33,776 bases of DNA, taken from the NCBI GenBank assembly GCA_025060295.1, contig JANXCH010000010.1, forward strand, positions 1-33,776. Direction: 5' to 3'. A program made the translations under genes and the position numbers. Source of the DNA: Dehalococcoidia bacterium. GTDB lineage: Bacteria > Chloroflexota > Dehalococcoidia > Lucifugimonadales > HRBIN23. The notes under the pieces were generated by a model. That model ran no database searches. It was given only the letters and a program-made list of their open reading frames with translations, and had not been told where the DNA came from. This document shows, piece after piece, positions 3,610 through 32,187 of the stretch. Each line of letters opens with the position of its first letter. Position 1 is the first letter of the stretch.

Positions 3610-5268
3610 ATGGCGCTGTCCCTGACGGTTACCACAGGACGCAGTGTGGTGCTCACCCGCAACGGGATGGTCTGCTCCGCCTCGCCTTTGGCGGGGGCGG
3701 TGGGGCTGCGGGTGCTCCAGGAGGGGGGCAACGCCATTGACGCCACCATCGCCACCGCCGCCGCCGAGGGGGTGGTGCTTCCCCCCATGTGCGGCCTGGG
3801 GGGCGAGGTGTTCGCCCTGGTCTACTGGGCACGGGAGGGCAAGGTCTACGGCGTCACGGGGAGCGGGAAGGCCCCCCTCAAGGCCACACGGGAGTTCTTC
3901 GTCTCTCGCGGCTACACGGTCATGCCCCAGGACGGCCCCCTGGCAGTGGCTATCCCCGGGGAGGTGGACGCCTTTGACACCCTCCTGCGGCGCTTCGGCA
4001 GTGGGAAATTCAGCCTGGCCCGCCTGTTGGAGCCGGCCATCGCCCTGGCGGAGGAGGGGTTCCCTCTGCCCCCTCGCATTACCCGCTATCTGGTCGTCTT
4101 TGCGCCCCAGCTGGCGCGCCACCCCTCCACAGCGCGCATCTTTCTGAACAACGGCAGACCCTACCAGCCCGGGGATATCCTGCGCCAGCCCGAGTTGGCC
4201 CGCTCTTTGCGCGCCATCGCCGACAAGGGGCCGCGGGAGTTCTACGAGGGGGAGTTGGCGCGCAGGCTGGTGCAGGGTCTGCAGGAGGAGGGAGGCCTGT
4301 ATACCCTCCAGGAGTGGGCAGCCCACCGCACCATCGTGTACGACACCCCCCTTACCACCACCTACCGGGGCTTCACCGTCTACGAGACGCACCTGCCCTC
4401 CCAGGGCATCCTGGTGCTCCAGATGCTGAACATCCTGGAGGGGTTGGATTTGCGGGGCATGGGCCACACCAGCGCCGATTACATCCACCTGCTCACCGAG
4501 GCCAAGAAACTGGCCTATGCCGACCGCTTGGCCTACCTGGGGGATCCGGAGTTTGTGCCCGCCCCCTGGCAGGCTCTGCTGGATAAGGGCTACGCCGCCG
4601 AACGGCGCAAGGCCATAGACATGCGGCGCGCCGCCCCTAGCGTCGCGCCAGGAGCCCTGGCTGTGCCTGCGGGCGACGGTGCCACCAGTTACTTCTGCGT
4701 CATAGACCGCCAGGGGAACGCCGTCTCCTTCATCCACAGCCTCTCCAACGCCTTTGGGGCGTGCCGTGTGGTGGGGGATACGGGCATCCTGCTGAACAAC
4801 CGGGTGGGGCGGGGCTTCAGCCTGGTGGAGGGGCACCCCAATGTCATCGCCCCGGGCAAGCGCACCATGCACACCCTCAACGCCTATATGGTGTTCCAGG
4901 GGGGGCGTTTGCACCTTATCGGGGGCACGCCGGGGGGCGATAATCAGCCCCAGTGGAATGTGCAGGTGCTCACCCGCCTGCTGGACTTCGGCCTGAACCC
5001 CCAGGAGGCCGCCGAGGCCCCCCGCTTCACCCACTTCCCCGGCACTGACCCCGTCGCCGTGGATGCGCCCCCCGAACTGCGCCTAGAGGAGCCGTTCCTG
5101 CAGAATACAGCCCTGGTGGACGACCTGAAGCGCCGCGGGCACGCCGTCGGCCCCTATCCGGCGAGTGGCTTTTTGGGCGGGGTGCAAATTATCGCCATAG
5201 ACCCCGCCACGGGGGTGCGCATGGGAGGCTCCGACCCCCGCTGCGACGGGGGGGCATACGCCCATTAG
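3610..5268 (+). CDS. Gamma-glutamyltransferase family protein
   Basis: A 552-residue Ntn-hydrolase of the gamma-glutamyltranspeptidase family, which cleaves or transfers gamma-glutamyl groups from glutathione-like compounds after self-cleavage into two subunits. The N-terminal SPLAGAVGLRVLQEGGNAIDA motif region is typical. The expected nucleophile is Thr359 in GDGATSYFCVID, at the new N-terminus of the small subunit. The GGTPGGDNQPQWNVQVL region near residue 438 is also characteristic. There is no signal peptide, so unlike the classical periplasmic enzyme it is probably cytoplasmic, as in many members of this branch. A strong AAGGAGGGG precedes the ATG. The gene is isolated between convergent and unrelated neighbours, so the context does not identify its substrate. 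Confidence 0.93.
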   Translation: MALSLTVTTGRSVVLTRNGMVCSASPLAGAVGLRVLQEGGNAIDATIATAAAEGVVLPPMCGLGGEVFALVYWAREGKVYGVTGSGKAPLKATREFFVSRGYTVMPQDGPLAVAIPGEVDAFDTLLRRFGSGKFSLARLLEPAIALAEEGFPLPPRITRYLVVFAPQLARHPSTARIFLNNGRPYQPGDILRQPELARSLRAIADKGPREFYEGELARRLVQGLQEEGGLYTLQEWAAHRTIVYDTPLTTTYRGFTVYETHLPSQGILVLQMLNILEGLDLRGMGHTSADYIHLLTEAKKLAYADRLAYLGDPEFVPAPWQALLDKGYAAERRKAIDMRRAAPSVAPGALAVPAGDGATSYFCVIDRQGNAVSFIHSLSNAFGACRVVGDTGILLNNRVGRGFSLVEGHPNVIAPGKRTMHTLNAYMVFQGGRLHLIGGTPGGDNQPQWNVQVLTRLLDFGLNPQEAAEAPRFTHFPGTDPVAVDAPPELRLEEPFLQNTALVDDLKRRGHAVGPYPASGFLGGVQIIAIDPATGVRMGGSDPRCDGGAYAH

Positions 5269-13530: not shown

Positions 13531-13606
13531 ATCTACACTCCTGCAGGGGCCTGGGGGGCAGACAATGATGCGTTCATCAAGCGACGATCGTTATCGAACA
13601 TCACTT

Positions 13607-15906
13607 TTACTCCGCCTCCTCCCCCTTGTCAAGATCGCGTGGATGGTTATTCCTGAGAATATAGAGTACGTAATGCACTAAGTTCTTCATTATAGATGGC
13701 AATAAATCCTCGAGGGAGTCGAAGTCGTTACTATGTTGTGCATCACTGAGAGCTTTGTGAACAGCTACGGCGCAATAATAGATCGAACTGCAGTAACGCT
13801 CAATGAAAAATTGTCTTGCCTTCTCGAAAAGTTTAAGTTGTTGCAACGCGTTTTCGAATATTGTAGCGTTCATATTGATATACACATCCATGCTATCAGA
13901 CGATCTTCTCACATCAGCGATATCGTCGCCAGTCCAAGAGCGATTGTAACCCAATTTTTCGCCGATCTCTTGCCATTGTGACCTATCCACTGGAATGGGC
14001 CGGGGATAACTTGCTGAGCCTGGTAACTGGGGATTCTTCTTTCCAGGGTTTTGTTTAGTAGGATGGGGGGGTATATAACGAACCTGCAATTGGACTGTTA
14101 GGGGATCTAGTTCAGGTCTAGTCAGTTTTACAGTAACGAGTGTGGTTGATCCTTCCCGCGCGTCTCTTGCAGGTTTCAGAGTTAACCAAATGATGCCCTG
14201 ACGAATTTCACGAGATTTCAACATCTCGGGAGGATGCACGATCAGTGTACCTCCTCTACCGGGGGGACGACGGAAATAATCGTCACTCGCATCGGTTTCG
14301 AGTAAAACACGGACATAGGAATTGATCGGTAGGGCTTTTTGATACAAACCTTTGCCTTCGTTCCATTTGTGTATACGTAAATAAGTAGGTATCTCTCTGC
14401 CTCGCCACTGAATACTCTTCACAGGACCTGGATCCACCGCTGCTATCGGCCGAGAAGAACCGGATCGGAGTATAAAGCGCCCGAAGTAAGGGTCACTTAC
14501 TACTGAATCCAATATAACTTGATCCAATTTCTGTTGATCTCTTGCGACCGAACTGATAATATTTCTGCGATATTCTTCTTTCCAGGCTTTGAGTGTCGAG
14601 GATTCGCGCAACTCTTCGGCTAAAGCATCTTCGATACCCTTTGTATCCACACCTTTAGCCATCCGGTCACGCGAAGCCATGAAAACCCTCTCCAAAATAT
14701 TCACATCATCATCAGAACAATCGATATGAACCAATAGTTTATCGGCTATATAGGGTTTTTCGGCCTTCGATTTCAAAAAAGATCGACCGATAGTAGCATG
14801 GGTTTGACCATTGATGGTAAAAAATATAGCCTCGTCGTCACTGAAAAATTCGTTTTTTCTAGCTTCAGGTGAAAACGAATACTCCACTATATGTCTGTGT
14901 CCCAGTACCTTCAAATCAGCCTCAATATCCGTCTCGTCTTTCAAAAGACTGCGATCATCCACCTTGATCCGATATTTGTTGCCTAACAGTATCTTGGACG
15001 GGCTATGACCGCCATATTGGCGTTTATCATATAATATTATTGGTAGCGCAGGATAATAAAGGCGTCGATTCAGTTCTCTCCATAATCCGAGGGTGATCAC
15101 ACTGGTATCTCGCAGCTCGTAGTTGAACAATTTTATGAAAGTCCCGTGACTCAGCATTCTATCTTCACGCAATAACGGCAAATCCTCGCCTGAGAAAGAA
15201 AAAATCGGACCGTCTTCTCGGGTGCAATACTCAAACCAAGACGAACGATCACCTGGCCCCGCTCTATGCCATCGTATTAGTGTGAAACCCCACAAATCCT
15301 GCTGATCCCCCCTGAGCAACTTCGGATGTCGCCTTGATAATATGAATTTGTATCCATTGTTCCCGCAAAAACGCAGGACGCCCGAACTGCCCATATGATA
15401 TTTGCCTTGAACAAACTGTATACGCAACTTCACACCAGCATGTAAAGCTAAAAATGTTTGCTCAAAATCAGAAGGGTGTTGACCCTCACCGGTATCAATA
15501 ACACAAATGTTCATCGCTTCCTTCTCACCGTCGGCGACGACCCATATGTTATTTTCTGCTAACTCTCTGCGTTTTTTGTGATTACTTCTGAAAAATCGCC
15601 CTCGCGTATACCGAAGAAACGCTCCACTGCATCTGCCATGTTCCGTGGCGCTTGCGGGCTTTCGGGATCAATGCCCCTCAATCTGCACTCGCGGAGGAGA
15701 ACATGGTCGATACTGTTGACGATTATATCTGTCGATGCTGCGACAGGCTTTTGTTGCTGGTTGAAAACGGTTCCGGCAAACTGTCTGCCACCATAAGTTT
15801 TCCACCTAGCATTGTGTAATAGAGGGTGGTGTTCGATCAGATCAGTTACTGCGTTTTCGCTTTGTGCTCCGGCAAGCGCTAAAGCCAACTCTTTTTCAGA
15901 AGTCAT
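13607..15906 (-). CDS. Large GHKL-fold ATPase, split by a -1 frameshift
   Basis: The GHKL (gyrase, Hsp90, histidine kinase, MutL) ATPase motifs are divided between two overlapping frames. The first frame (15906 to 15571) carries an N-box-like VNSIDHVLL with Asn64. The second (15571 to 13607) carries the G1 box IDTGEGQ with Asp138 and a glycine-rich lid GKYHMGSSGVLRFCG (about 168-182). Joined at the A AAA AAC heptamer (15571-15577) they give about 766 residues. Alone, the downstream frame starts inside the ATP site and cannot work. The C-terminal two thirds have no domain that I recognise. Similar ATPases of this type are found in defence-rich regions, but their biochemical role is unknown to me. 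It follows a HARE-HTH gene by 15 bases and has CGGAGG before its ATG. Base composition is clearly lower in GC than the flanks. Confidence 0.72.
15571..15577 (-). other. In-phase -1 slippery heptamer A AAA AAC
   Basis: The upstream codons read ACA AAA AAC, so this classic -1 frameshift heptamer is in the right phase. After a slip the next codon is CGC at 15571, and the RRELAENNIWVV sequence continues into the ATPase frame. A six-A run is also a common place for single-base indels or sequencing errors. Confidence 0.5.
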
Positions 15907-15921
15907 ACTCAGCCTCCGTTA

Positions 15922-16476
15922 CTATATAATCTTATTGCCGCTTTTTTGCGACCTACTGCGTCGTTTGCGCCTTGCACTAACTGTTTCTGTTCCCCATGAT
16001 ACTAGCGCATAGTATCCCCGTTGCCCGGCTTGCACGAACCGCTTGTCGCGTGTGATCTGTGTGAGTAGATTTGCTGCCGGGTCTTTGCCGCCGATGTAGA
16101 CCCCATTTGCGAGGACTTTTTCCGCTATCATTCTGTAGTGCATAGGCTTACCATATCCGCATAAAACATCATATGCTACATCAACAGGTCTCCGCCCACG
16201 CTCTTGCTGTGTAGAAGGATTCTCAACCGCCAAACCCTCCAATCGCAATAATGCGTCAACATGGTCTAACTTTTCTTGTAAAATCTTCTTTTTTTGTTCC
16301 AAAGGCTTGATTTCCCGTACATATTGAGCGTGTATTTGAGCCAGCGACGCATCAACGCTCTGGAGCTCGGTTATCAGACGCTGGCGCGTCGCCTGTAGCT
16401 CCTGTAACCACAGACCACTTTTGTCATCTTGCTGTGTCAATGACGGTACGGGGGATAACCTGCCAACCTGCTCCAT
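15922..16476 (-). CDS. Coiled-coil protein with HARE-HTH winged-helix domain
   Basis: A 184-residue protein. Residues about 22-85 form a charged coiled coil (LQATRQRLITELQ through LQEKLDHVDALL). Residues about 95-160 match the HARE-HTH domain: RRPVDVAYDVLCGYGKPMHYRMIAEKVL, then KDPAANLLTQITRDKRFVQAG and a GYYAL strand. HARE-HTH domains occur in RNA polymerase delta, eukaryotic ASXL proteins and restriction enzymes, and have been proposed to sense modified DNA. The C-terminus is strongly basic (RRKRRSRSQK), as expected for nucleic-acid binding. It is the first gene of a two-gene unit with the GHKL ATPase, is AT-richer than the flanks and has its own near-consensus promoter. A role as the DNA-recognition partner of the ATPase is inference. 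Confidence 0.75.
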   Translation of the reverse strand: MEQVGRLSPVPSLTQQDDKSGLWLQELQATRQRLITELQSVDASLAQIHAQYVREIKPLEQKKKILQEKLDHVDALLRLEGLAVENPSTQQERGRRPVDVAYDVLCGYGKPMHYRMIAEKVLANGVYIGGKDPAANLLTQITRDKRFVQAGQRGYYALVSWGTETVSARRKRRSRSQKSGNKII

Positions 16477-16507
16477 AACTCTCTCCCTTGTTGTATTCTA
16501 CGCTGAT

Positions 16508-16535
16508 ATGATACCAAAAAATCGCTTGTTGTCAA
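16508..16535 (-). promoter_or_regulatory. Near-consensus sigma70 promoter for the HARE-HTH/GHKL unit
   Basis: On the minus strand a perfect TTGACA (-35, plus coordinates 16530-16535) is followed after 16 bases by TATCAT (-10, 16508-16513), itself preceded by TGG as an extended -10. The start codon lies 31 bases downstream with GGGAGAG as its ribosome binding site. It is far closer to the E. coli consensus than the other promoters in the window. Confidence 0.75.
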
Positions 16536-18960: not shown

Positions 18961-19773
18961 CTATGACAATGGATCAGATTTTGTCACCTTTTTCTGGAAG
19001 AGCATCACATACTCGTGGCGGAAGATGTAGAACCCGCCCCGCAACGCCCGATAGCGCCACAGGTTGGTGGTCTTCCCCTTCCCTCGCTCGTTGCCCTGGA
19101 TGTCCTTCACATTGATGGCCTTCAGGCGCAGGCCCGCCTTCCGACACACCTCCATGCAATAGAACCCCAGGGGCACCCACTCCCCCCGCGTGTACTTGTC
19201 GCCGATGACCAGGGCCAGGTGCCGACCGGGGGCCAGCAGATCTACGGCGTTGGCCACCGCCTTGGCGAAGCGGTCTAGGAAAGCCTTCACCGTCGGGGCA
19301 CGGGACAGATCACGGGGGTCATCGCTGAACTTGATGATGTCGTGGTAGGGGGGATGGAGGATAAGGCAGTGGGCGTGGGAGAGGCCCAGACGGTGCAGTT
19401 CGTCCCGCACCCGCTGGGCGGTGGAGGGCTCACAGGCGTCCAGCCCCTCCAGCACAACCGTGTGGACGCCGTAGGGGTTTTCGGCCTGCTCTACTACCTC
19501 TTGGGCGCGCCTGGCCACATGGGGCACCAGTTCCACGCCGATGCCGTGGCGCCCCAGGCGGCGGCACTCGATGAGCGTGGTGCCCAACCCGCAGAACAGG
19601 TCCACCACCACCTCCCCCGGCTGGGTGAAGCGGCGGAGCACCTGGTTGGGGATTTGGGGGACAAAGTTGCCCCAGTATTCGGGGGTGTGGACGCTGGAGG
19701 CGTCCCTGCGCCCCAGAAGCCACAGGGAGTCTAAGATGAGGTCATCGGGGGGAGAAACCCGAGTCGTTTTCAT
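18961..19773 (-). CDS. DNA methyltransferase-like protein (N6/N4 amino-methylase fold)
   Basis: A 270-residue Rossmann-fold protein when started at the ATG at 19773 (GGTGGG upstream). The AdoMet-binding motif is VVDLFCGLGTTLIECRRLG near residue 60. The catalytic tetrapeptide region reads LILHPPYHDIIKF, so the usual Asp or Asn of (D/N)PPY is replaced by His. The segment HLALVIGDKYTRGEWVPLG resembles the late motifs of DNA amino-methylases. Unlike the enzyme at 70-1192, motif I precedes motif IV here, a gamma/alpha-like order. It ends 12 bases from the convergent lipoprotein gene and lies 55 bases downstream of the DUF1828 gene. Given the odd catalytic motif, it may methylate something other than DNA or be inactive. 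Confidence 0.75.
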   Translation of the reverse strand: MKTTRVSPPDDLILDSLWLLGRRDASSVHTPEYWGNFVPQIPNQVLRRFTQPGEVVVDLFCGLGTTLIECRRLGRHGIGVELVPHVARRAQEVVEQAENPYGVHTVVLEGLDACEPSTAQRVRDELHRLGLSHAHCLILHPPYHDIIKFSDDPRDLSRAPTVKAFLDRFAKAVANAVDLLAPGRHLALVIGDKYTRGEWVPLGFYCMEVCRKAGLRLKAINVKDIQGNERGKGKTTNLWRYRALRGGFYIFRHEYVMLFQKKVTKSDPLS

Positions 19774-19828
19774 CCCACCACCTGCTGGGGCAATCGTTTT
19801 CTGCACAGGGGCGTGCTGAACCCTGCCT

Positions 19829-20590
19829 CTAAGGGACAACTTTGAACTCCTCTAGCAGGATCTTAAGCAATTGGTGTTCGTTGAGGGAAAAGAGACGATG
19901 GGGACACACCTCGGCGAATCGGCGTAGAGAGCGTTTATCCACCGCCCCTTCGTTCTCAAAGATGCCGAGGGGGATGAAGGAAATGCCCTGCCGTTCGTAC
20001 CAGTACAGTTTCACCGCCGCCCGGTCGCAGTGCTCGTTGTTGGCGATGGCAAAGGCGAAGATAGGGGCTCCTTCCCGCTCTATCTTGAAGTCCACAGTGT
20101 ACGCACCTTCCTGATCGACTTCCACTGTATAGTTTTTGACCACACGATCGGAGGGAAGGATTTTGGCGAGAACACGGGCTACATCCTCGTGGAAGATGCG
20201 CCGCACCTCCTCTCGGCGTAGATACAGGAGATCCACCACCTGCTGGAGCAGTTGGAGGTAGCGCAGGAGGCCCTTGCCCAGGTCGTAGGTGGCAAGGCGG
20301 ATTTCTCCGTTCTGCTCTTCGGCGCCAGCCCCCCGCAAAATGGCCCCAAAACGCTCCTGGCGGGCCGGCGTATCAATCGTGAACTCCAAATCGGCCAGGT
20401 GGAAGAGAGTGTGCCCGTGGTCGGTGAACACCCAACCTTCACCCTTTTGCTGAACGGCGACGACGAAATGGTCGCCGTCGGGGAAAGCGAAAGGCGTGTC
20501 AATGACCCAGAGACCGGGTTCCACTTCGTTTACACGGACAGCCCGGCAGAGGCTCGTGCACAGCATCTCTTCTAATCGGCGCTTCTCCAT
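19829..20590 (-). CDS. DUF1828-domain protein
   Basis: A 253-residue protein. The N-terminal half fits the DUF1828 family, with the strand pair GLWVIDTPFAFPDGDHFVVAV followed by GWVFTDHGHTLFHLADLEFTI (about residues 48-70). The C-terminal half (about 130-250) resembles the DUF1829-type partner domain, with VDFKIEREGAPIFAFAIAN and an ISFIPLGIF strand. Neither domain has an established biochemical function that I know of; both recur near restriction, methylase and toxin-like genes. It begins 2 bases after the small gene upstream and is followed by the methyltransferase-like gene. This tight spacing suggests that the three act together. Confidence 0.68.
   Translation of the reverse strand: MEKRRLEEMLCTSLCRAVRVNEVEPGLWVIDTPFAFPDGDHFVVAVQQKGEGWVFTDHGHTLFHLADLEFTIDTPARQERFGAILRGAGAEEQNGEIRLATYDLGKGLLRYLQLLQQVVDLLYLRREEVRRIFHEDVARVLAKILPSDRVVKNYTVEVDQEGAYTVDFKIEREGAPIFAFAIANNEHCDRAAVKLYWYERQGISFIPLGIFENEGAVDKRSLRRFAEVCPHRLFSLNEHQLLKILLEEFKVVP

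Positions 20591-31167: not shown

Positions 31168-32187
<1,020 letters not shown>

Follow-up and report, generated by a model that had tools for sequence, protein, structure and literature searches.

A 33,776-nt stretch of the genome of a Dehalococcoidia bacterium (GCA_025060295.1, contig JANXCH010000010.1), referred to here as the window, contains on its minus strand a gene that is divided between two reading frames, with the heptamer A AAA AAC at the frame transition. This locus raises the question of whether ribosomes are programmed to change frame within the gene or whether the gene was broken by accident.

Layout and identity of the split gene

The frame-0 ORF (positions 15559 to 15906, minus strand) opens with an ATG at 15906 and closes with a TAG whose last base is 15559; ORF reading and a match to the N termini of homologues marked it as the 115-amino-acid N-terminal piece that carries the N-box. 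Homologue alignment assigned the rest of the GHKL domain, the transducer, and the C-terminal part to an open stretch in the −1 frame (13607 to 15667, minus strand). Alignments of homologues covered the first piece as far as residue 98 to 115 and the second from its first codons, with homology in the −1 frame starting near 15586. Because homologues span both pieces and the nearest relatives read through them in one frame, the two pieces are one gene. The N-box (DIIVNSIDH, 15703 to 15729) is in frame 0, and the D-x-G-x-G motif (DTGEGQ, 15479 to 15496) and a GKYHMGSSG box (15380 to 15406) are in the −1 frame, all three on the minus strand and identified by sequence and homologue alignment. In the relatives the N-box and the D-x-G-x-G box belong to one protein, whereas in the window copy they lie in separate frames and do not. 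The initial annotation, which had described an ATP-binding site divided between two frames, was borne out on this point, and its corollary that neither half alone would form a complete ATP site presumably holds as well.

Neither ATPase piece scored above the cut-off in Pfam, no family was assigned to the pieces by PADLOC and NCBIfam or to seven intact relatives by PADLOC, and a PDB sequence search with query A2 returned no matches. An AlphaFold2 model of the intact relative at locus L014 (pLDDT of 81.4; 25-row alignment) was predicted to have a Bergerat fold and an S5-like domain, and approximately residues 45 to 459 of the model aligned with the ATPase modules of Hsp90, MORC3, SMCHD1, and MutL with Z scores of 14 to 19 (VIA-align). 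Given these structural matches, the gene is identified, at the level of a predicted fold, as encoding a GHKL-S5 ATPase with an Hsp90/MutL/MORC-type module. Closest in kind is most likely the prokaryotic MORC/paraMORC set as described in the available part of PMC2292703, and "paraMORC-like" would apply by kind rather than by family motifs. Features shared with that set, as given there, are the GHKL plus S5-type module, a patchy distribution across bacteria and archaea, and, for some relatives, DNA methylases, helicases, or Dnd-type genes as neighbors. Among the plasmid relatives, DNA cytosine methylases adjoin two of the eight, and a helicase adjoins one of those two. Unlike the restriction-modification neighborhoods of paraMORC genes in the same part of PMC2292703, the window gene is directly flanked by a HARE-HTH ORF only, with no restriction-modification gene, and the window copy is also broken. 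GHKL is unmentioned in the available portions of PMC10853773 and PMC12839542.

The HARE-HTH domain ORF (184 amino acids; 15922 to 16476, minus strand; identified by domain match) lies directly upstream of the ATPase gene, and a similar ORF was found near the ATPase gene in five homologous loci (L014, L017, L095, L106, and L107). Two of these five are distant family members. The HARE-HTH ORF and the GHKL-S5 ATPase gene (15922 to 16476 with 13607 to 15906) possibly constitute a conserved two-gene system. The pair occupies a low-GC island (13550 to 16520; 43 to 49% GC, compared with 65% for the window overall) flanked by gyrA and an MFS transporter gene. This island is probably a recent acquisition; upstream of gyrA, four compared genomes do not match it across the short stretches that were compared.

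Homologues across the break

Relatives of the gene were collected from plasmid records (n = 8), viral-contig loci (n = 7), and genome contigs (391 confirmed stretches, 80 of which were kept); within the same class, they were present in 20 of 393 genomes, the window's own included. A single-sequence scan of the genome contigs identified no relatives, and neither an exact-match search of viral contigs with 30 nt adjacent to the junction nor a DNA search of phage records returned a match. The split was tested at 111 loci. Five at which the second piece had no usable match were excluded, which left 106: two were the window itself (split), 93 had the two pieces together in a single ORF, and 11 had no match to the N-terminal piece. 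The initial annotation had hinted at a programmed site, and this comparison speaks against the hint: no shift at the window's break position was found among the 104 other homologous loci (among which a few organisms are apparently represented twice), with all 93 assessable loci in one frame. For the viral-contig relatives, both pieces were in one frame in six of seven. Loci L017 (at about 1661) and L074 (at about 4185 to 4207) are frame-broken, each at a position other than the window's, and the L017 break is a one-base difference from the whole gene at L095, to which it is 89% identical. Breaks in this GHKL-S5 ATPase family are therefore sporadic.

At the place of the window's frame change, the nearest relatives (L014, L095, and L017) have DFSEVGQRKRRELA in one frame and without gaps; in the window, frame 0 encodes DFSEVITK and the −1 frame encodes KRRELA. 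Homology placed the frame jump within approximately four codons of a six-A run (15577 to 15572) that is missing from these relatives. The nearest homologues are only about 40 to 57% identical to the window gene, and given this distance a very recent lineage-specific device is conceivable. The gene was unmatched in a same-genus genome (G001; 87% complete) and in a same-family genome (G002), so there was no close copy in which the A run could be tested.

The A AAA AAC heptamer and alternative readings

The heptamer (15571 to 15577, minus strand; identified from sequence) lies in phase just 5′ of the frame-0 stop (the heptamer through the stop codon spans 19 nt), and a −1 shift would lead into a downstream frame that is intact. 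Programmed −1 frameshifting here would yield little full-length ATPase and the 115-amino-acid piece as the main product, but the split is unconserved among homologues, and we consider this quite improbable. Stimulatory Shine-Dalgarno sequences are usually spaced 9 to 14 nt from the slippery site, and the sole GAGG-type element upstream sits 22 nt from the heptamer. The downstream RNA also argues against it: folds had z scores of −1.0 to −1.6, with 14 to 29 of 200 shuffles folding at least as well (pseudoknots fall outside the model). According to PMC4066793, A_AA.A_AA.C is weak and of low efficiency in E. coli, yet bacterial IS elements very likely make use of it. The window site resembles the IS sites described there in its heptamer, phase, and direction, but differs in that the split is unconserved, no stimulator was found, and the gene is not an IS gene. 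Programmed frameshifting was accordingly rejected as the main reading, as the relatives are whole and neither a significant fold nor a well-placed Shine-Dalgarno sequence was found; it keeps a slim chance. The corresponding biological proposal, that a lineage-specific −1 frameshift in the ATP site rations a GHKL-S5 defense-type ATPase such that only slipping ribosomes give ATP-binding protein, is likewise improbable. If the site were programmed, it would represent a frame switch within an ATPase active site and outside mobile elements.

Within the gene, 8 of 757 codon-stepped 30-nt stretches contain a comparable in-phase A6 run, so a break placed at random would coincide with one approximately 1% of the time. 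Indels favor short homopolymer runs, and a break already in the A run would be in phase for one phase in three; for both reasons, the heptamer is weak evidence for recoding. In stop-free frames of at least 300 codons in the genome sample and window, A AAA AAC occurs in phase four times and out of phase three times, and is thus unremarkable by itself, which further counts against a programmed site; the junction heptamer is not among these four, as its stop-free frame has 119 codons. What stands of the initial annotation's heptamer claim is the in-phase A AAA AAC and the −1 direction; the recoding site it implied does not, with the split unconserved and no stimulator found.

The six-A run at the junction could instead permit transcriptional slippage that restores the frame in some of the mRNA. 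A run of six is short for efficient slippage, however, and its absence from the nearest relatives makes this most unlikely. It is also most doubtful that the two pieces are made separately, by termination and reinitiation, and assemble into one ATPase. A possible internal start, identified from the letters alone (AAGG, 5 nt, then the ATG at 15514; 15512 to 15523, minus strand), lies approximately 45 nt beyond the frame-0 stop and would give a 635-amino-acid downstream piece to join the 115-amino-acid one, and the break corresponds to residues 114 to 118 of the L014 model, where a loop is predicted to give way to a helix (residues 116 to 123). However, no relative is split there, a restart at this ATG would leave out roughly 24 residues that have homologous counterparts in relatives, and the N-box Glu is replaced.

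A one-base lesion and sequence decay

The best explanation is that an ordinary single-frame GHKL-S5 ATPase gene has acquired an accidental one-base frame lesion in or next to the six-A run, either as a recent natural indel (a pseudogene) or as a single-base assembly error; with mutation and error taken jointly, this is very probably the case. Translation of the gene as written would terminate at residue 115 without producing an intact ATP site, and the in-phase heptamer would be a by-product of a lesion hitting the A run and not a selected switch. We infer an accidental origin and a loss of function. According to PMC3711429, frame breaks that are singletons or fall outside clusters, and that homology supports, probably stem from sequencing errors or recent indels. 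The window gene resembles the GeneTack-type singleton broken genes treated there in that the break is found in one genome, is supported by homology, has whole relatives, and falls at a short homopolymer; it differs from them in carrying an in-phase −1 heptamer. Against the lesion are this exact in-phase heptamer (about 1% for a random break), the long stop-free −1 frame, and the fact that crude tests gave no sign of a wide frame-error problem in the assembly.

The catalytic Glu of the N-box, kept in 90 of 91 aligned homologues (one gap), is Asp in the window copy. At 74 alignment columns with conservation of 90% or more among the 91 homologues, the window copy deviates at 10 (one being an alignment gap); the homologues deviate at 2.9 on average, and 10 or more deviations occur in six of the 91. 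Ten relatives viewed singly, mostly the nearest, had 0 to 9. These 10 deviations, the catalytic Glu included, suggest from the alignment that the window copy is under relaxed constraint. Such decay would point to a genuine pseudogene more than to a simple error in the sequence, though not strongly, since the D-x-G-x-G box is preserved and the −1 frame still runs for 659 codons without a stop; most of the conserved residues are likewise retained in that frame. Overall, we lean slightly toward a real mutation over sequence error. The lesion reading removes a tempting recoding candidate, as an in-phase slippery heptamer at a break is insufficient without conservation. The intact members of the GHKL-S5 family, which sometimes occur with a HARE-HTH ORF and are hardly represented in Pfam or PADLOC, may merit attention.

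Each Pfam-identified gene in the window is in one frame, and a crude frame scan of 314,748 bases identified four transitions, all resembling ordinary gene overlaps; the scan missed the ATPase break and is insensitive in low-GC DNA. As far as these crude tests reach, an assembly ridden with frame errors was rejected as the cause. The ATPase break had been called the second such case in the window, but no counterpart was found. The scan gave one other transition, near 1227, which resembles an overlap between the end of an enoyl-CoA hydratase gene and the start of a DNA methylase gene; the case originally meant may be something else.

Elsewhere in the window, a DNA methylase ORF (18961 to 19839, minus strand) has a Pfam N6_N4_Mtase match that covers positions 166 to 220 only. 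The short match gave the ORF a truncated look, but the motif order, judged by eye, suggests a permuted whole enzyme. The methylase ORF is adjoined by a DUF1828 ORF (19829 to 20590). A further ORF of 336 amino acids (31168 to 32178, minus strand) encodes collagen-like triple-helix repeats (Pfam PF01391) in this bacterial genome.
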